Origin: Holophagaceae bacterium
GTDB lineage: Bacteria; Acidobacteriota; Holophagae; Holophagales; Holophagaceae
Reading direction: 5' to 3'
Length of the DNA stretch: 58,830 nucleotides
NCBI GenBank assembly: GCA_003165415.1
Contig: PLUC01000079.1
Span: 7,551 to 66,380, forward strand
In this document: piece by piece, positions 33,690 to 52,141 of the stretch
Position numbering within the stretch: the first letter of the stretch is position 1
Layout: each line of letters opens with the position of its first letter
Translations under genes and position numbers: made by a program
The notes under the pieces: model-generated
Seen by the model: only the letters and a program-made list of their open reading frames with translations
What the model was told of the DNA's origin: nothing
The model's database searches: none

Positions 33690-33764
33690 CAACGGAAACC
33701 TTGCGGATTCCACCAACCCCGGCATTCTTGAGTCATAATCCACTTGGGCTTTGCATGGGGACCT

Positions 33765-35711
33765 ATGGCTGATTTTCGACGTCTTCTTTTGGGTCGCCGT
33801 CTGGCCACCGACGAGACCCAGCACACCAAGATCAGCACCCCCATCGGACTCGCGGTCTTCTCCTCGAATGCCCTCTCCTCGGTGGCGTACGCCACCCAGG
33901 AGATCACGGCCTCGCTCTCCATGACCCTTGGCCAGGGCGGGCTGGGCCTCGCCGCCGGCGTGGCGGCGTCGGCCGTGTTCGGGCTGCTGGTCCCGGCGGC
34001 CTGCGGCATCGTCATCCTCCTGGCCCTGCTGGCCATCAGCTACCGGCAGACCATCCTGGAGTATCCCGGGGGCGGCGGGACCTACATGGTGGCCAAGGAA
34101 AACCTCGGGGAGATGGCGGCGCAGACCGCCGGCGCGTCCCTGCTCATCGACTACGTGCTCACCGTGGCGGTGTCGGTGTCCGCCGGGATCGCCGCCATCA
34201 CCTCCGCCGTGCCGGCCCTGGAGGGCGCCAACGTGTTCCTGGCGCTGCTGGTCATCGCCGGCATCGCCATGGCCAACCTGCGCGGGCTGCGGGAAGGGCG
34301 CAGGTACTTCGCCATTCCCACCTTCGGCTTCCTCGGCTGCATGGCGGTCCTGCTGGCCATCGGTTTCGGCCGCTGGATGTTCGGGGCGCCGCTGGTGCCC
34401 GGGCCCGGCCACCTGCAGATGGAGCGCGCCGCGGGGCACGCCTCCCAGCTGGCGGGCCTGGTGCTGCTCTGGGTGTTCATGCGGGCCTTCGCCGCGGGCT
34501 GCACCGCCCTGACCGGGGTGGAGGCCATCTCCAGCGGGGTTCCCGCCTTCAAGGAGCCCGCCGGCCGGAACGCGGCCAGGACCATGGTCTGGATGGCGCT
34601 CCTGCTGGGGATCATGTTCCTGGGGATCACCCTGCTCAGCCGCCACTATGGCGTCACCTACCACCACAGCCCCGACGCCGAGGTGGTGCAGGAGACCCTG
34701 CTGTCCAGGCTCAGCTGGCAGATCCTGGGGTACAACGGCGTCCTGGGCATTCCCGCCCGGATCGGCTACGGCCTGATCCAGGCCTTCACCTTCGCCATCC
34801 TGCTGGTGGCGGCCAACACCGCCTACTCCGACTTCCCGCGGCTGGCAGCGCTCCACGCCAAGGACGGGTTCATGCCCCAGCAGTTCACCAGCATGGGCGA
34901 CCGCCTGGTGTTCTCCAACGGCATCCTGATCCTCTCGGTCCTCTCCGGGGCGCTGGTCTACCTGTTCCACGCCAACACCGACATCCTGCTGCCGCTCTAT
35001 GCCCTGGGCGTGTTCATGGGCTTCACCATCAGCCAGACCGGCATGGTCGTGCACTGGTTCAGGAAGCGCGGCCGCCACTGGCATGTGAAGTCGGTGGTGA
35101 ACGGCGTCGGCGCGGCCGCCTCGGCGCTGGTGATGCTGGACATCGCCATCACCAAGTTCGCCGGCGGCGCCTGGATCGTCATCGCGCTGGTGCCGATGCT
35201 GGTGGTGATCTTTTTCAACATCCACCGCCACTACATCCGGGTGAAGTCCACCCTGGCCGCCAGCCGCACCGACGCCTTCCTCCCGAGCAAGCACCACGCC
35301 ATCGTGCTGGTGTCCAGCCTGCACGCCGGGGTGGTCCAGGCATTGGCCTACGCCCGGCTGATATCGGGCAACCGGGTGGAGGCGCTCACCGTCGATCTGG
35401 GCTCGGACGGCTTCCACGAAAGCGCCGCCATCCAGAAGCTGAGGGCAGACTGGGCCTACTACGGCATGGGCGTGCCCCTGCGCAGTGTGCCGAGCCCATA
35501 CCGGCGGATCGTGGAGCCGATCCTGGACGAAGTGGAGCGGTTCCGCCTGGCCGAGCCCGAGGTCTGCCTGACCGTGATCCTCCCCGAGTTCGTCACGCCC
35601 AAATGGTGGCAGCGCATCCTGCACAACCAGATGGCCTTCCGCATCAAAGCGATGCTCATGCTCAAGCCCGGAGTCATCGTCACTTCCGTTCGGATGCACC
35701 TGCCGGATTGA
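33765..35711 (+). CDS. kimA: KimA-type potassium transporter (APC superfamily)
   Basis: 648 residues. After a short cytoplasmic start comes the segment KISTPIGLAVFSSNALSSVA, matching the KimA/YdaO opening (ALxxLSSDALSSVAYG). About twelve hydrophobic helices follow to about residue 480, including EYPGGGGTYMVAKENLG (substrate-binding unwound helix, PxGGGxYxVA in the family). A C-terminal cytoplasmic alpha/beta domain of about 160 residues begins KHHAIVLVSSLHAGVVQALA and is universal-stress-like, as in KimA. KimA takes up K+ by proton symport. ATG 33765 preceded by GGGG. No c-di-AMP riboswitch is visible in the 75-bp leader. The next 400 bp are the palindromic element. Confidence 0.85.
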   Translation: MADFRRLLLGRRLATDETQHTKISTPIGLAVFSSNALSSVAYATQEITASLSMTLGQGGLGLAAGVAASAVFGLLVPAACGIVILLALLAISYRQTILEYPGGGGTYMVAKENLGEMAAQTAGASLLIDYVLTVAVSVSAGIAAITSAVPALEGANVFLALLVIAGIAMANLRGLREGRRYFAIPTFGFLGCMAVLLAIGFGRWMFGAPLVPGPGHLQMERAAGHASQLAGLVLLWVFMRAFAAGCTALTGVEAISSGVPAFKEPAGRNAARTMVWMALLLGIMFLGITLLSRHYGVTYHHSPDAEVVQETLLSRLSWQILGYNGVLGIPARIGYGLIQAFTFAILLVAANTAYSDFPRLAALHAKDGFMPQQFTSMGDRLVFSNGILILSVLSGALVYLFHANTDILLPLYALGVFMGFTISQTGMVVHWFRKRGRHWHVKSVVNGVGAAASALVMLDIAITKFAGGAWIVIALVPMLVVIFFNIHRHYIRVKSTLAASRTDAFLPSKHHAIVLVSSLHAGVVQALAYARLISGNRVEALTVDLGSDGFHESAAIQKLRADWAYYGMGVPLRSVPSPYRRIVEPILDEVERFRLAEPEVCLTVILPEFVTPKWWQRILHNQMAFRIKAMLMLKPGVIVTSVRMHLPD

Positions 35712-35724
35712 TTCACCCTGCCGA

Positions 35725-36133
35725 GGCGTCCGTTGTTCCGCCCATCGCGCCCTACTGTTTCGTTCGGGCCCCTTAGCGGTGCGCCGACCCATCGGTGCGT
35801 GAATCTCTTGAAGCGTCCTCGCTGCGCTCCGGGCGCTGCAAGAGTTCACGCAGGTCTTCCCCGCCTGGTTTTTGGAATACGTCGCCAGTCATCGGAAAAC
35901 GATTTGCGGCAACCATTCCAGGACCCGGGGCCTATAGGATCAGACCATCGCCACCTTTGCCATTGAACCGCAACCTGGAATCCAGGCGGGGAAGGCCAGC
36001 GTGAGACCTTGGATCGCCCGCAGGCGGCGCAGCCGCCGAGGACGGTCCAAGGATCTCACGCACCGATGGGTCGGCGCATCAACATGGGACCCGAAGGAAA
36101 CAGATAGGCGCGTTGGGCGGGACAACGGACGCC
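35725..36133. repeat. Large palindromic intergenic element, copy A
   Basis: 409 bp, almost wholly self-complementary, filling the space between the convergent kimA and the Zn-ribbon gene (gene-free 35712-36142). Outer ends GGCGTCCGTTGTTCCGCCC and GGGCGGGACAACGGACGCC mirror each other. 35781-35802 mirrors 36056-36077 perfectly over 22 bases. Side hairpin 1 is 35796-35852 (TGCGTGAA-t-CTCTTG with CAAGAG-TTCACGCA). Side hairpin 2 is 35999-36061 (GCGTGAGA CCTTGGA with TCCAAGG-a-TCTCACGC) and holds an inner GGCGGC-gca-GCCGCC. The centre also has TTCCCCGCCTGG mirrored by CCAGGCGGGGAA. A second copy in inverse orientation is at 49181-49601. Short open frames inside are by-products. Mobile palindrome, structured RNA or bidirectional terminator are all possible. 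Confidence 0.85.
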
Positions 36134-36142
36134 ACGGTAGGG

Positions 36143-36871
36143 TTAGCGTACCCGGCGGCTGGGGAGTTGCAGGATCTCCAGGCCGGAGAGCAGCTCGGCC
36201 AGGGTGCGGTGGTTGGGGGTGAGCACCATGCACAGGAAGGACACCGGGAAGCCCAGGGCCGAGACCAGGTGGAGCAGGGAGAAGGACATGCGGCGCTCGG
36301 GCAGGTCGGTGTCCAGCAGCAGGCGCTCCATGCCCATCATGGGCGACTGGCCCACCAGGACCAGCGGCACCATGAGGTAGGCCCAGGACACGGCACCGTG
36401 CACCGGCAGCAGGTAGGGCCAGAGGTTCGGGTAGAGCACGGCGGGCGGTGAGCCGGACATCCAGCAGGCCACCAGCGCCAGCCCGCCGTTGAGCATCAGC
36501 AGCGCCAGGCACTCCAGGGCCTCCATCTTGACCACGGGCCAGAAGGCATCGGTCAGCTCCAGGTCGGGGCTGGGGGCGGGCAGCTCCAGGCGCAGGCCGG
36601 GGTCCGGGAAGCCCCCGGTGAAGCTCTGGGGCTCCGCGTTCTCCGGCGGTATCCGCTCCAGGATGGTCAGGGGCTCGACCCGGCCCAGGGCCGGCGTCGA
36701 GAGGGTCTGTCTTTCCTCCCTGGCGGACCCGGAGTTCTTCAGGGCCGAGGCCTGGAACAGGAGCGGCCGGGGCAGGGGCTGGCGGGCCAGGCTCAGGCCG
36801 CACTGGGGGCATTCCAGTACCAGCGGGGTGATCCGCTGGTGGCAGCTCGGGCAGTGGGTTCGCAGGTTCAA
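36143..36871 (-). CDS. Zinc-ribbon membrane protein (RDD-like)
   Basis: 242 residues. A zinc ribbon opens the protein: CPSCHQRITPLVLECPQCGL (two CxxC). A Pro-rich linker follows (about 30-115), then about four hydrophobic segments (ALLMLNGGLALVACWMSG; PYLLPVHGAVSWAYLMVPLV; LLHLVSALGFPVSFLCMVL). The arrangement MGMERLLLDTDLPERRMSF...NHRTLAELLSG is that of RDD family membrane proteins. Function unknown. Last gene of a six-gene minus-strand operon (from 41619) that also has FHA, TPR and LolA genes; 2 bases after the TPR gene. Confidence 0.75.
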   Translation of the reverse strand: MNLRTHCPSCHQRITPLVLECPQCGLSLARQPLPRPLLFQASALKNSGSAREERQTLSTPALGRVEPLTILERIPPENAEPQSFTGGFPDPGLRLELPAPSPDLELTDAFWPVVKMEALECLALLMLNGGLALVACWMSGSPPAVLYPNLWPYLLPVHGAVSWAYLMVPLVLVGQSPMMGMERLLLDTDLPERRMSFSLLHLVSALGFPVSFLCMVLTPNHRTLAELLSGLEILQLPSRRVR

Positions 36872-47970: not shown

Positions 47971-48259
47971 CGCGCTCGCTCCTATGGGCAGGACCGGAAT
48001 TTTCGGATCGCGCAGGCCCTCCGAGGTCGAGTGGATCAACCTGGATCGCCGGCGCACGGGCAAATCGAACTCCCGCCCAGGTGGAAAGGACCGCTTGAGG
48101 GGATGGGAATGAATTTGTCTGAGGGAAGAACGTTGCGATTCTCTACCCTGGAAATTATCCTGTCCATTGTTGATTTGTCCTACGGGGAACCTGTGATCTA
48201 AACCCGCGCGGTCGAGGGATGATAAGAAAATGCGCTTTGGGTGGTATAGTTTTTTACCC

Positions 48260-49171
48260 ATGACTCCCGACATTCCTGCCCAGCCCGTCCAGAACCGCAT
48301 CGCCGAAGCCTACCGGGAGTTGCCCGAGGCCATGCGGCGGATCGCCGATGCCCTGATGTCCGACCCGCTCCTGGGGGCGCTCTGGGGCATCGAAGTCATG
48401 TCGGAGAAGGCGGAGGTGAGCGTCGGCACCGTGGTCCGCTTCGCCAAGCGGCTCGGCTACAAGGGCTTCAGCGAATTCCGCGACGCGCTCAGGGCGGCCT
48501 GCCATGCCCGGAGCGGCGACGCGGAACTGGAGCTCATGGAGGTCCCCTCCGCCGATGTGGTCGGGACCCTCGCGGAAGTGACCCGGCGCGACGGCGAGAA
48601 TCTCCAGCGGCTGATCCAGGCGGTGGACCACGACACCCTCACCGCGGCCACGCGCATGCTCATTGAGGCCCACCACCGGGTGATCCTGGGGCGCGGCGTC
48701 TCCCACGTGATGAGCCTGGTGCTGGGGTTCTACCTGACCCAGGCCGGGCTGCCCTGCATCGCCGCCATCCCTTCGGATTTCTCCACCCAGGTGGCCAACC
48801 TGGGGCCCAAGGACCTGCTGGTGGTGCTCAGCTTCTTCCCCTACAGCCGGGAGTCGGTGGATTCCGCCATGTTCGCCAAGGAGTGCGGGATCCCGGTCCT
48901 GGCCTTCGCCGACCGGACCGACTCGCCGCTCAAGAGCTGCGCCGACATCCTCATCCCGGTTCCCAGCGAGGACCTGCTGTTCAGCTTCAGCATCACCACC
49001 TTTGCCGCCCTCGCCCACGCCTTCGCCATCGTGGTGGCCTCCGAGGACCATGCCGGCACCCTGAAGCGGCTCAAGGCCGCGGACAAGGTCGCCCAGCCGC
49101 TGCTGGTGGACCACTGGCTGCCCATGCACCCGGGCGCCTTCAGCTTCGACAGCAGGCTGCCCAAGCGCTAG
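48260..49171 (+). CDS. RpiR/MurR family transcriptional regulator (HTH + SIS)
   Basis: 303 residues. Helix-turn-helix at about 10-80 (AIxxAYRELPEAMRRIADAL region, then SEKAEVSVGTVVRFAKRLGY, the RpiR reading helix). The C-terminal SIS domain (about 130-280) binds a phosphosugar: RVILGRGVSHVMSLVLGFYL and VVLSFFPYSRESVDSAMFAK. Divergent from glcD, so it may control glcDEF. ATG 48260 has a -10-like TATAGT 10 bases before it and no ribosome site, which would suit a leaderless message; ATG 48230 with GAGGGA upstream is the alternative start. The palindromic element copy B lies right behind its stop. Confidence 0.87.
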   Translation: MTPDIPAQPVQNRIAEAYRELPEAMRRIADALMSDPLLGALWGIEVMSEKAEVSVGTVVRFAKRLGYKGFSEFRDALRAACHARSGDAELELMEVPSADVVGTLAEVTRRDGENLQRLIQAVDHDTLTAATRMLIEAHHRVILGRGVSHVMSLVLGFYLTQAGLPCIAAIPSDFSTQVANLGPKDLLVVLSFFPYSRESVDSAMFAKECGIPVLAFADRTDSPLKSCADILIPVPSEDLLFSFSITTFAALAHAFAIVVASEDHAGTLKRLKAADKVAQPLLVDHWLPMHPGAFSFDSRLPKR

Positions 49172-49180
49172 CCCAACTGG

Positions 49181-49601
49181 GTCGTCCGTTGTCCCGCCCG
49201 TCGCGCCTTCTCGTTTCGTTCGGGTCCCGAACTGATGCGACGACCCACCGGTGCGTCAGATCTTTGGAACGTGCTCGGCGGCTTCGCCGCCTGCGCGCGA
49301 TCCAAAGTCTGACGCTGACCTTCCCCGCCTGAGTTCCAGGTTGCGGTTCAATGGCGGGAATAGGGGCAAAGGTGGCAAAGGTCTGATCCCATAGGCCCCG
49401 GGTTCCGGAATGGTTGCCGCAGATCGTCTTCCAATAACTGGTGACGTATCCAAAAAGCCAGGCGGGGATGGTCTGCGTGAACTCTTGCAGCGCCCGCAGC
49501 ATAGCGAGGACGTTGCAAGAGGTTCACGCACCGGTGGGTCGGCGCACCGATTCGGGACCCGAACGAATCAGGAAGGCGCGACGGGCGGGACAACGGGCGC
49601 C
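49181..49601. repeat. Large palindromic intergenic element, copy B
   Basis: 421 bp, inverse in orientation to the element at 35725-36133 and similar over its whole length. It fills the gap (gene-free 49172-49567) between the RpiR gene and the convergent secreted-protein gene, and runs past that gene's stop by 34 bases. Outer ends GTCGTCCGTTGTCCCGCCC and GGGCGGGACAACGGGCGCC mirror each other. Side hairpins: 49253-49315 (GCGTCAGA-t-CTTTGGA with TCCAAAG-TCTGACGC, inner GGCGGC-ttc-GCCGCC) and 49474-49530 (TGCGTGAA CTCTTGC with GCAAGAG-g-TTCACGCA). Stems, bulge positions and inner hairpin are as in copy A, several with paired base changes. Confidence 0.85.
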
Positions 49602-52141
49602 GCAATAATGCTAGGCACCGGCGGCGGGAACCTCACCGCCAGCACCAGGTCGGGCCAGCCGAACAGTTTGATGTAGCAGGTGTTGCCCAGGAGGGGCGAG
49701 GTCAGCCGGGCCACTTCGCGGCCGCCTTCGATGCTGACGGCGGCGTTCTGCCAGGGTCCTTCCGGGGCCGGGGCCACGGCCTCGATCTGGTCCAGGGACT
49801 GGCCGGTGAGCTGGAACCCGCCCGCCTCCGCCCGGACCGCGCCGATGCTCGGCAGTTCCAGGAAGGTGGCCGGGAGGGGGATCCAGTCGCTGGCGCCGGC
49901 GTGGTTGTCCTCCACCTGCACTTCCAGCCTGCCGGAGGCCCTTCCCCCCAGCAGCTCCTGCGGATTGAAGATGAAGGCCGCCTTCTGCTCGCGGCCCATG
50001 ACCCGGATCTTCCCGGGCAGGATGGTGCGGATTTCCGAGGGGTCATCGGCGTTGCGGATGGCCACCCGGAAGCTCGGGTCCGATGGGAACCGGTAGCCCT
50101 TGGCCGTGAGCAGGCTCACCTGGCTGGGGTCGCCGGTGGAGGCGATGGGGATGGTGGAGCTGAGGGTCAGGTCGGTGCTGCGGGTCGCCACCGGGATGAC
50201 CTGCACCGCCCTGAGCCGGGGCCGGGCCGCCAGCAGGGTGGCCGGACCCTTGGCCGCCAGCTTTCCGTGGTCCAGTACCAGGGTCACCGTAAGCTGCATG
50301 CCCAGCGGGCCTTCCAGGGGTTTCCCGTCCTCCGCCTGGAAGGTCCGGGCCGGGCCGTCGGCCGGGTCCTTGGCCGGAAGGAACCGGCGCTCACCCACCA
50401 GGACCGCCTGGACACCCCGCAGATGCTGGCCGTGCAGCACCACGGAGGCGTCCCCCAGGCGGGCTTCGAGGGAAGTGACTTCCGGCGGGGCCGCGGCCAG
50501 GGTCAGGGGGCGGGACAGGGCGGGGTGCTCGGCGCCGAAGGTCTGGATTTCCAGGGTGCCCGGGCCCGCGTCCTCCGGCCTGGGCTCGAACACGGCCTCC
50601 TTGGACCCGTCCTTGGCGAGGTTGAGCTTGGCCACCAGGGGGGCGGCAACCGCCGCGGCAGGCCTGAAGCTGACCTGCTTCACCGTGCCGGCCCAGCGCC
50701 CGGGAAGGTTGAAGGCACAGGCCTTCCCGATCTGGAAAGCCGCCGTCTCGGCCGGAGTGGGGGTCCACACCGGATCGCATCCGGTGGGGAACACCTGGGG
50801 GTCCATGGCGATGCTGGTGAAGCCCCAGCGGCCCACGATGCGGCCCTTGACCTCCATGGCGTCCAGCTTGCGCAGGGCGTCCAGGATGGGCGCCGGGGAC
50901 GCCACGAACGACTGCTTGTTCGGGCTGGGGGCCAGGGTGAGCGGGGGCAGGCTCTCGCCCTTGGGTCCGGTGAGCAGCAGTTTCCAGTCGTGGCCGAATA
51001 GGGCGAAGGGGCTGCGGCTGTCCTCCCTGGGCCGGGCCTTCAGCAGGAACTGCTTCTCCAGGAGGGATTCCCCGGCGGGCAGGTCGAAGTCGAAGGCGGG
51101 GGCCGCCTGGTCCTCCCAGTTGCCGGGGCAGCACATGAGGGCGCCGCGGAGGTCCCCGGTGGTGCGGATCCAGGAACTGTAGTACAGGTCCGCGCTGGAA
51201 TCATGGAAATCCCGCGCCACGGCCGGAAGGTACTGGAACTGGTGGTCGGGCCAGAGATTGTTGACGATGGCCGCCAGGTCGAAAATGATCGAGACGTAGG
51301 CCGAGACCGGACGCTCGCCGGCGGTGACGGCCACCGGGCCCGCCGCCACCGGCGCGGCCGGGGCCGAGCCGGGCACCAGGACATTGGTGTTCCGGAACTC
51401 CTGGGTGAGGAGATTGCACTTGTCCAGGTTGGAACTGGGGGTGCCCAGGAACCCCTGCAGCTCCCCGGAGACCTCGTCCCCGTAGGCGTGCAGGAAGCCC
51501 TGCAGCGCGCTGTCATACTGGGCCGGGGACAGGCTCTTGTCGATGGCGTCCAGGTCCTGGATGAACTTGTCCGCCGCCGCCCGCTGGGTGGAGATGTCGG
51601 CGATCTTGGCGCACAGGGTCCGGAAAGCTTCCAGGTGGTCGTTGAGATCCTTCAGGACCTTCTTCCGGGCGTTCTTGTCCGGGATGAGGAAAATCATGGG
51701 GATGGAATCGTAGGGCACGGAGATGGTCGGGATGACCATCCGGTCGTCCTTGCGTTTCAAGGTATAGTCCACCACCCCTTGATCCGTGGGGGCGATGGTC
51801 CGGGGCAGGAACACCACGATGAGCGACCAGTCGGCGCTGGTCACCCGCTGGTCGAAGGCCTCTCCGGAAAAGGACAGGTCCAGCTTGTCCTGGAATTTCA
51901 GGACCGGCACCTGGAACAGGGGCAGGACCGATAGCTCGGCCGGGGCCAGGGCCCGGGTCACCTTGGCGGAAATGGAGATGGGGCCCTTCTGGAAGGCCTC
52001 CACCAGCGGCGCGGCCGGGGCCTGGGCGGGCAAGGCCTTGGCGGTTTCAGGCGCGGCCGCCGCCAGGGGCGGCATTCCACCGAGCAAAGCGCAGACGAAC
52101 AGGACCTGCCTGGTCAATGGACCGGAACCTGGGGTTCTCAT
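49568..52141 (-). CDS. Large secreted protein of unknown function
   Basis: 857 residues with a signal peptide (LTRQVLFVCALLGGMPPLAAAA). The mature chain is rich in beta-type segments; the part around 560-640 (EVTSLEARLGDASVVLHGQH, LRGVQAVLVGERRF) resembles IPT/Ig-like modules and the last about 60 residues also look beta-rich. No catalytic motif recognised. Probably periplasmic or surface located. The last 11 codons and the stop lie inside the palindromic element copy B, so the C-terminus may have been changed by its arrival. Pal lies upstream, 43 bases away, on the same strand. Confidence 0.65.
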   Translation of the reverse strand: MRTPGSGPLTRQVLFVCALLGGMPPLAAAAPETAKALPAQAPAAPLVEAFQKGPISISAKVTRALAPAELSVLPLFQVPVLKFQDKLDLSFSGEAFDQRVTSADWSLIVVFLPRTIAPTDQGVVDYTLKRKDDRMVIPTISVPYDSIPMIFLIPDKNARKKVLKDLNDHLEAFRTLCAKIADISTQRAAADKFIQDLDAIDKSLSPAQYDSALQGFLHAYGDEVSGELQGFLGTPSSNLDKCNLLTQEFRNTNVLVPGSAPAAPVAAGPVAVTAGERPVSAYVSIIFDLAAIVNNLWPDHQFQYLPAVARDFHDSSADLYYSSWIRTTGDLRGALMCCPGNWEDQAAPAFDFDLPAGESLLEKQFLLKARPREDSRSPFALFGHDWKLLLTGPKGESLPPLTLAPSPNKQSFVASPAPILDALRKLDAMEVKGRIVGRWGFTSIAMDPQVFPTGCDPVWTPTPAETAAFQIGKACAFNLPGRWAGTVKQVSFRPAAAVAAPLVAKLNLAKDGSKEAVFEPRPEDAGPGTLEIQTFGAEHPALSRPLTLAAAPPEVTSLEARLGDASVVLHGQHLRGVQAVLVGERRFLPAKDPADGPARTFQAEDGKPLEGPLGMQLTVTLVLDHGKLAAKGPATLLAARPRLRAVQVIPVATRSTDLTLSSTIPIASTGDPSQVSLLTAKGYRFPSDPSFRVAIRNADDPSEIRTILPGKIRVMGREQKAAFIFNPQELLGGRASGRLEVQVEDNHAGASDWIPLPATFLELPSIGAVRAEAGGFQLTGQSLDQIEAVAPAPEGPWQNAAVSIEGGREVARLTSPLLGNTCYIKLFGWPDLVLAVRFPPPVPSIIAAPVVPPVAPS

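Follow-up and report, generated by a model that had tools for sequence, protein, structure and literature searches.

A dispersed palindromic element of about 430 bp with paired base changes at convergent gene ends in a Holophagaceae genome

Two copies of a palindrome in the window

The stretch of Holophagaceae DNA analysed here (58,830 nt, hereafter the window) carries two copies of a long palindromic element on opposite strands, 13 kb apart. Copy B, which provides the reference orientation for all copies, spans 439 nt of the plus strand (49172..49610) between the tetramers CTAG at 49168-49171 and CTAG at 49611-49614. Copy A (locus L008) spans 427 nt of the minus strand (35716..36142) between TTCA at 35712-35715 and TTAG at 36143-36146. 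To the left of copy B lies a gene for an RpiR-type regulator with HTH_6 and SIS domains (48230..49171, plus strand), directed towards the element, whose TAG stop is supplied by the left CTAG; this tetramer may be part of a target-site duplication, the right CTAG being identical and equally distant (16 nt) from the start of the conserved arm. The gene to the right (49568..52141, minus strand; no Pfam match at E 0.001) is likewise directed towards the element, and its frame enters the right arm for about 40 nt before ending in TGA. Copy A is flanked on its left by an amino acid permease-like gene (33744..35711, plus strand; stop at 35709-35711) and on its right by a gene (36143..36871, minus strand) whose stop lies within the TTAG tetramer and which gave no Pfam match at E 0.001; for this right neighbour, DNA similarity on both sides of the junction is found in the relatives G001-G005. 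At the start of the window, a unit of about 15 bases (GGGCTTCTTGGCGGC, with variants) is repeated in tandem at positions 8-133, which we guess to be a lysine/alanine-rich protein tail on the other strand.

The first-pass annotation had placed a second, inverted copy of a palindromic element at 49181-49601. This identification stands, with the slightly wider limits given above for copy B: two repeat pairs (I1 and I2) link 35725-36148 to 49166-49601 at 85-86% identity, and each copy is an inverted repeat in itself (I3, 78% over 125 nt; I4, 80% over 110 nt). Both fold strongly when taken alone: the energy is -302 kcal/mol for copy B (z -18.4) and -290 kcal/mol for copy A (z -16.4), with 0 of 100 shuffles as good in either case.

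When the element is read from the outside inwards, a YTAR tetramer often comes first. Next is a tip of about 12 nt with variable sequence, then a conserved arm (GTCCGTTGTCCCGCCCGTCGCGCC...) with the core GGGTCCC-N7-TGCGCCGACCCAYCGGTGCG after it; a bulged hairpin follows, and beyond it lies a more weakly pairing centre, after which the order is mirrored. Each of the two outer arms measures about 90 nt and has the fixed core. In copy B, the left core (GGGTCCC-N7-TGCGACGACCC, 49222..49246, plus strand), which recurs in the family-1 palindromes of the sister genome G002, is mirrored by an inverted right core (GGGTCGGCGCA-N7-GGGACCC, 49536..49560, minus strand). The core flanks hardly vary among copies; the seven-base spacer between them is variable in sequence and near-constant in length (six bases on one side of L010), and the left and right spacers of a copy agree at 2 to 7 of 7 positions (11 of 13 copies, with both spacers read at equal length). 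Hairpin A of copy B (63 nt, 49253..49315, plus strand) contains a bulged base on its arm-side strand and an inner GC hairpin, and hairpin B (55 nt, 49475..49529, minus strand) has a bulged base on its own arm-side strand; in copy A the corresponding hairpins lie at 35999..36061 (A, minus strand) and 35797..35851 (B, plus strand).

The paired differences between the copies that the annotation had listed are all present in the sequence: GCGTGAGA/TCTCACGC becomes GCGTCAGA/TCTGACGC, CCTTGGA/TCCAAGG becomes CTTTGGA/TCCAAAG, and ATCGGT/ACCGAT becomes ACCGGT/ACCGGT. The bulge and the inner GC hairpin, said to be kept, are indeed retained in both copies. The last of the three differences, however, is no clean compensation across the family, where this column pair reads T-G in 6 of 13 copies, C-G in 3, T-A in 3 and C-A in 1. 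Copy B also shows unpaired drift, both in the seven bases that follow GGGTCCC, of which 4 match, and at CTCG/CAGG in its outer arm.

Copies across genomes and their placement

In the source genome of the window (G000; 4.84 Mb in 273 contigs), a DNA search whose 41 rows were merged by hand located the element at 17 places, 13 of them with intact copies; this count is a lower bound, since 40 of 53 first-look candidates were scored. Two places (C84, C186) are incomplete and run into assembly gaps, and two others (C120, C266), each interrupted by one end of a group II intron, are probably halves of a single copy, which gives about 16 copies rather than 17. These four were excluded for these reasons, so that the alignment covers 13 of the 17 places; as aligned, the whole element measures 412-452 nt and its hairpins 53-65 nt. 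The 12 other intact copies are 80-91% alike to copy B, and pairwise identity among the 13 ranges from 79 to 91% (mean 86%, 78 pairs). With the closest of the 78 pairs at 91%, the element appears to have made no recent movement. Copies L005 and L007 have near-identical centres and different hairpin A sequences, and the hairpin A of L007 is that of L003; judged from these alignments, the copies are mosaics. A coding sequence was considered and rejected, as among six frames in each of the 13 copies only one frame of L009 is open through the element. Copy B found no match at E 1e-5 among 50,697 phage and 72,556 plasmid records, and no description of these repeats was found in the open-access literature searched.

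The intron found in two parts (L013 1800-3063, on the C120 side, and L252 1700-2634, on the C266 side) carries reverse transcriptase and maturase domains and lies just 3' of the inner hairpin. The C120 side matches Rfam RF02001 (E 3.3e-13) and encodes an N-terminal part of a reverse transcriptase; on the C266 side a C-terminal part including the GIIM maturase domain is encoded, and the match to RF00029 is sub-threshold (29 bits, cut-off 40). We take GTGCG to be the first bases of the intron, which then starts five bases 3' of GGCGGC-AGA-GCCGCC. As passages of PMC3898094 describe, group IIC introns target DNA hairpins, including terminators and phage attachment sites; this putative group IIC intron, behind a hairpin in one G000 copy, would offer a natural test case for hairpin targeting.

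The exact core pattern was matched in 3 of 100 genomes (15 times in G000, 14 in G002 and once in G005), and the reversed control in none. G002 (one contig, 98% complete) holds two large palindrome families, each at about 40 places after rows were merged by hand, and 20 of these were fetched per family, mostly best-scoring first. Family 2 (L083; L150 1589-2110) measures 424-526 bp in its 20 copies and has several conserved blocks separated by variable spacers; one of its places is the copy A junction. Even sampling for inverted repeats (60 bits or more, with a span of up to 900) gave 10 in G002 and 5 each in G001 and G004, from 200 kb of each genome, and none in G008 and 2 in G053, from 100 kb of each. 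Of the 10 repeats from G002, rough codon scores make 6 convergent, 3 co-directional and 1 divergent. The divergent one is of a short kind of about 150 bp, which occurs in G002 and G001 and has the core TGCGCCGACCCAT close to its apex and in opposite order. Palindromes of about 130-155 bp in these two genomes (L227 7004-7156, L233 8755-8909, L214 14993-15125) have the core GCGCCGACCCAT in common with the 430-bp family and differ in the rest. Others of about 140 bp in G004 (L219 7154-7293, L224 7638-7780) contain CCTCGGCG-like repeats, unlike the other families. Two elements of G001 with inverted ends (L210 4159-4460, L213 13547-13924) share their outer ends by eye and are unrelated to the present finding; their inner parts resemble pieces of a short reading frame.

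All 13 intact copies in G000 are flanked on both sides by genes directed at them, almost stop to stop, according to gene calls based on the codon usage of six window ORFs picked by eye rather than on annotation. On 25 of the 26 flanks the stop codon falls between -18 (outside) and +9 (inside) of the matched edge; on the remaining one, the right gene of copy B continues into the arm. The chance of finding 13 of 13 at convergent junctions is 1.5e-8 if one quarter of all junctions are convergent and 1.2e-4 if half are, both shares being assumed.

Such placement could indicate a gene-end device recruited by the host, either a bidirectional transcription stop or an mRNA 3' shield for converging genes. 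Family 2 of G002 agrees with this, with 14 of the 20 sampled copies convergent and the other 6 behind one gene end, as does family 1, where 6 of 18 scored copies are convergent and 12 of 18 lie at one gene end (2 of the 20 were without detectable arms). However, intrinsic terminators, taken as a GC stem-loop with a T run behind it, numbered 0 at copy B (0.6 expected) and 1, a weak one, at copy A (0.5 expected), the outer arm has no clear preference for G-U over A-C (25 vs 22), and the copy A junction exists without the element in G001, G004 and G005. We consider this explanation unlikely.

The flanking tetramers bear on the mode of insertion. Across the 24 ends of 12 of the 13 copies (L014 was left out, as its right end could not be placed), YTAR stands 16 nt from the arm start at 10 ends; 14 further distances were examined, and at each of them the count is 0-2 of 24. 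The two flank tetramers at 16 nt are identical in 3 of 12 copies (L001, L004, L009; p 0.038). Together with the inverted ends, these features would suit a miniature inverted-repeat element (MITE) mobilised by a classical transposase of the DDE type, with duplication of a YTAR target; on this reading, insertion at stop codons would be favoured by a presumed rarity of such tetramers within genes. However, the duplication test at 16 nt is beaten by two of the 14 other distances (p 0.004), and weighing these led us to lower the probability of this reading slightly. Moreover, MITEs keep their tips, whereas the parts in common with family 1 of G002 are internal (GGGTCCC-N7-TGCGCCGACCC and inward) and the outermost sequence differs: the tips are similar yet variable among the G000 copies and are not common to G002 family 1. 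No parent element was found among the arm matches in G000 (273 contigs, with two copies running into gaps). A DDE-mobilised MITE is thus, in our judgement, quite improbable.

Insertion sites were compared with genomes lacking the element, a check proposed in the first-pass annotation. At the copy A junction, the gap between the flank matches is only 22 bp in G001, 32 bp in G004 and 37 bp in G005, and the site is free of an insert; in G003 the matches are separated by about 600 bp, apparently a gene, and in G002 by a different palindrome of 522 bp. At the junctions of copies B, L004 and L009, the flanks in comparable relatives are not neighbours, or only one of them matches. Gene order has thus changed at three of the four junctions examined, and only copy A yields a usable site without insert. 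The elements may mark points of rearrangement or give rise to them. When 28 flanks of 14 G000 loci were compared with 40 fetched G002 loci, both copy A flanks matched the two sides of one G002 locus and one L013 flank matched another, from which we claim no excess of hot spots shared between the species.

Paired change in the stems

Across the 13 intact G000 copies, two-sided changes occur in 24 of 128 pairs, compared with 11.0 in shuffled alignments (0 of 500 as high); the 24 include pair 97/143 of hairpin A (T-G to G-T), which depends on bulge placement and carries no weight in our argument. Pairing cells make up 96.4% of 1,652 vs 93.5% after shuffling and the covariation score is 0.124 vs 0.072, with 0 of 500 shuffles reaching either value, and further pair types number 52 vs 46.4 (reached in 4 of 500). 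Slid controls gave 1 to 6 two-sided pairs; since the structure was derived from the same alignment, it is favoured over its slid versions. A FastTree tree was built from those columns of the centre that lie outside the pairs being counted; on it, 38 double changes fall on the same branch, and 30 of these replace one Watson-Crick pair with another. The null, 200 draws in which right columns were dealt to other pairs, has a mean of 5 and a maximum of 14. The number of double-change events is inflated, because the tree is weakly supported and the copies are mosaic. When distinct hairpin A sequences alone are considered, about five paired changes remain by eye. Paired change thus exceeds the shuffled, slid and tree-based controls by a clear margin, and something holds the G000 stems together.

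The strength of coupling differs among the stems. Mismatches within a copy are fewer than between copies in the outer arms (8.8% vs 12.6%, permutation p 0.0002) and in hairpin A (9.9% vs 19.2%, permutation p 0.0002); coupling is weak in the middle stem (5.5% vs 7.7%, p 0.033) and not significant in hairpin B (2.8% vs 3.5%, p 0.079). Unpaired drift in the stems, which the annotation had set against its own claim, therefore occurs in part, as the mismatches of the outer arms in each copy and the weak or absent coupling of the last two stems indicate.

As a raw count, every one of the 26 G000 hairpins (13 copies with two each) has a one-base bulge. In the minimum-energy fold, the bulged base is unpaired on the arm-side strand, 8-11 positions from the foot and without a partner opposite; L014 has it too, despite a different stem in its hairpin A. 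Such constancy would be expected if a protein reads the folded strand, and simple palindrome correction would tend to remove the bulge. We regard it as the best argument for structure as such, although it is not a general rule, since in family 2 of G002 the consensus stems of the hairpins are perfect and lack the bulge. In E. coli REPs, the REP transposase requires a bulge, according to a passage of PMC8266576.

The fold and the covariation could also reflect a structured non-coding RNA gene family, and two column pairs of hairpin A do have T-G as their commonest state. Elsewhere, where a Watson-Crick pair is the commonest, G-U cells number 25 vs 22 A-C cells in the outer arm and 9 vs 5 in the hairpins and middle stem. 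An RNA made from one strand should tolerate G-U over A-C, so that the lack of a clear bias leaves slight evidence for RNA; a DNA role, or the absence of a strand preference, fits the pair counts. Furthermore, no sigma-70-like promoter was found in the two stretches scanned, and no Rfam family reached its gathering threshold in the window, the best hit of copy B (E 0.04) lying far below the cut-off, at chance level. From sequence data of this kind, an RNA family seems highly improbable.

The family-2 hairpins of G002 inform on what keeps the stems matched. Among 40 hairpins in 20 loci, 25 have the consensus, and departures from it were compensated in 16 cases and uncompensated in 5; these are counts of copies, not of events, and a hairpin was included if each of its strands had 7 or more of the 11 consensus bases. 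The compensated departures represent 6 distinct variants in 8 loci. The two hairpins of a locus differ in 6 of these (L154, L160, L164, L165, L167, L169) and agree in 2 (L166, L168), and L165 contains two different compensated variants. Exchange between the long arms, which the annotation had offered as the rival explanation, therefore cannot be the whole cause in this family, and, as compensation is mostly confined to one hairpin, the unit kept matched is mostly the single hairpin. The perfect stems make short-range template switching possible, and likewise the swapping of segments between copies.

Pairing might then be kept by mutation itself, through polymerase template switching within short hairpins and gene conversion between copies, the elements being passive. 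Template switching can create and maintain stems, as PMC8794818 sets out, and so can make the same paired pattern. The mosaic make-up of the copies (L005/L007 centres, L007/L003 hairpin A) and the mostly local compensation in perfect family-2 stems point the same way. However, correction tracts should tend to remove the bulge between paired changes, which is kept in 26 of 26 G000 hairpins, and the outer arms retain 8.8% mismatches. We judge this explanation possible, though on the unlikely side; our preferred reading and its rivals can partly hold together. The suggestion that paired substitution reflects selection on structure is thus supported in part, by the paired change above controls and the constant bulge, but covariation is no proof of selection, since template switching could give a similar picture and the mosaic make-up of the copies inflates the apparent events.

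Relation to known palindromic repeats

Our preferred reading, for which we see an even chance, is a non-autonomous dispersed palindrome of REP-dimer type, far larger than known REPs. It would be built as a head-to-head REP dimer of about ten times REP length, and settling at or beside stop codons in convergent gaps, often at CTAG or CTAA, would harm neither gene. A trans-acting protein may recognise the bulged hairpins as folded single-stranded DNA and may have moved the copies; such recognition would be the selection that keeps the hairpins, with template switching and conversion between copies perhaps helping to keep them matched. The element looks like an enlarged relative of known palindromic repeats. 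What the data show directly is its dispersal, the convergent placement of the intact copies, one site free of it in relatives, the paired changes and the constant bulge, whereas its mobiliser and function are inferred. Y1 transposases (Y1_Tnp, PF01797) gave no match in G001, G002, G003 and G005, 3 matches in G000 and 5 in G004, the whole ones being 165-aa frames. The G000 and G004 genes were rejected as REP transposase candidates, since the four loci read look IS200-like by eye and the element core is not beside them. As G002, the genome richest in the palindromes found, has no Y1 match, the enzyme would have been lost or be of another kind if the element is kin to REPs.

The element may instead represent a distinct class, which we consider doubtful: large mobile palindromes specialised on convergent gene ends, in several families that differ in outer sequence and share the core TGCGCCGACCCAY, with folded single-stranded hairpins read by an enzyme other than a RAYT (REP-associated Y1 transposase). 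The target would be a stop-codon tetramer, which would leave each of the two genes with a stop. Long palindromes are commonly regarded as unstable in bacterial genomes, yet these sister species carry tens of them, old and diverged and mostly at one type of site. Selection on structure and template switching during replication are usually confounded as causes of compensatory change; dozens of copies in several families, each with two hairpins, and the opposition of a fixed bulge to perfect stems make this material suited to separating them.

The resemblance to REP, BIME and REPIN sequences lies in several features that passages of PMC3733652 and PMC8266576 describe: intergenic head-to-head hairpin dimers near the 3' ends of genes that converge, sub-families whose stems use alternative complementary bases, and, in some, a stem irregularity that is kept and a location within longer palindromes. 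In the two species covered by such a passage of PMC3733652, the majority of REPs between converging genes have both gene ends at a distance of <20 bp. REPs are found at 3' ends, mainly where genes converge or run co-directionally, and this location is shared by the G000 copies (13 of 13 convergent) and by G002 family 2 (14 of 20), and the stem irregularity with compensatory variants, known from some REP groups, by the G000 copies, the stems of G002 family 2 being perfect. The differences are size, with REP units being imperfect palindromes of 20-40 bp, single or in dimers, and a whole element of about 430 bp here; the enzyme, which is a RAYT there, whereas G002 has no Y1 transposase match; and, less clearly, the tag, since REPs are GTAG- or CGTC-tagged and the hairpin foot in G000 has no GTAG and is mostly GGTGCGTGA or GGTGCGTCA, with GGTAGCGC in many G002 family-1 copies. 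With MITEs of IS elements, our palindromes have in common the inverted ends, the lack of a conserved reading frame and, at some ends, YTAR at a fixed distance; they differ in that the shared parts are internal, the whole element is palindromic and no parent was found. In attC sites and other folded single-strand recombination sites, bulged hairpins are functional, and by analogy such a function would explain both the paired change and the fixed bulge. A further likeness to folded single-strand sites is the group II intron behind a hairpin, the position that group IIC introns take according to passages of PMC3898094.
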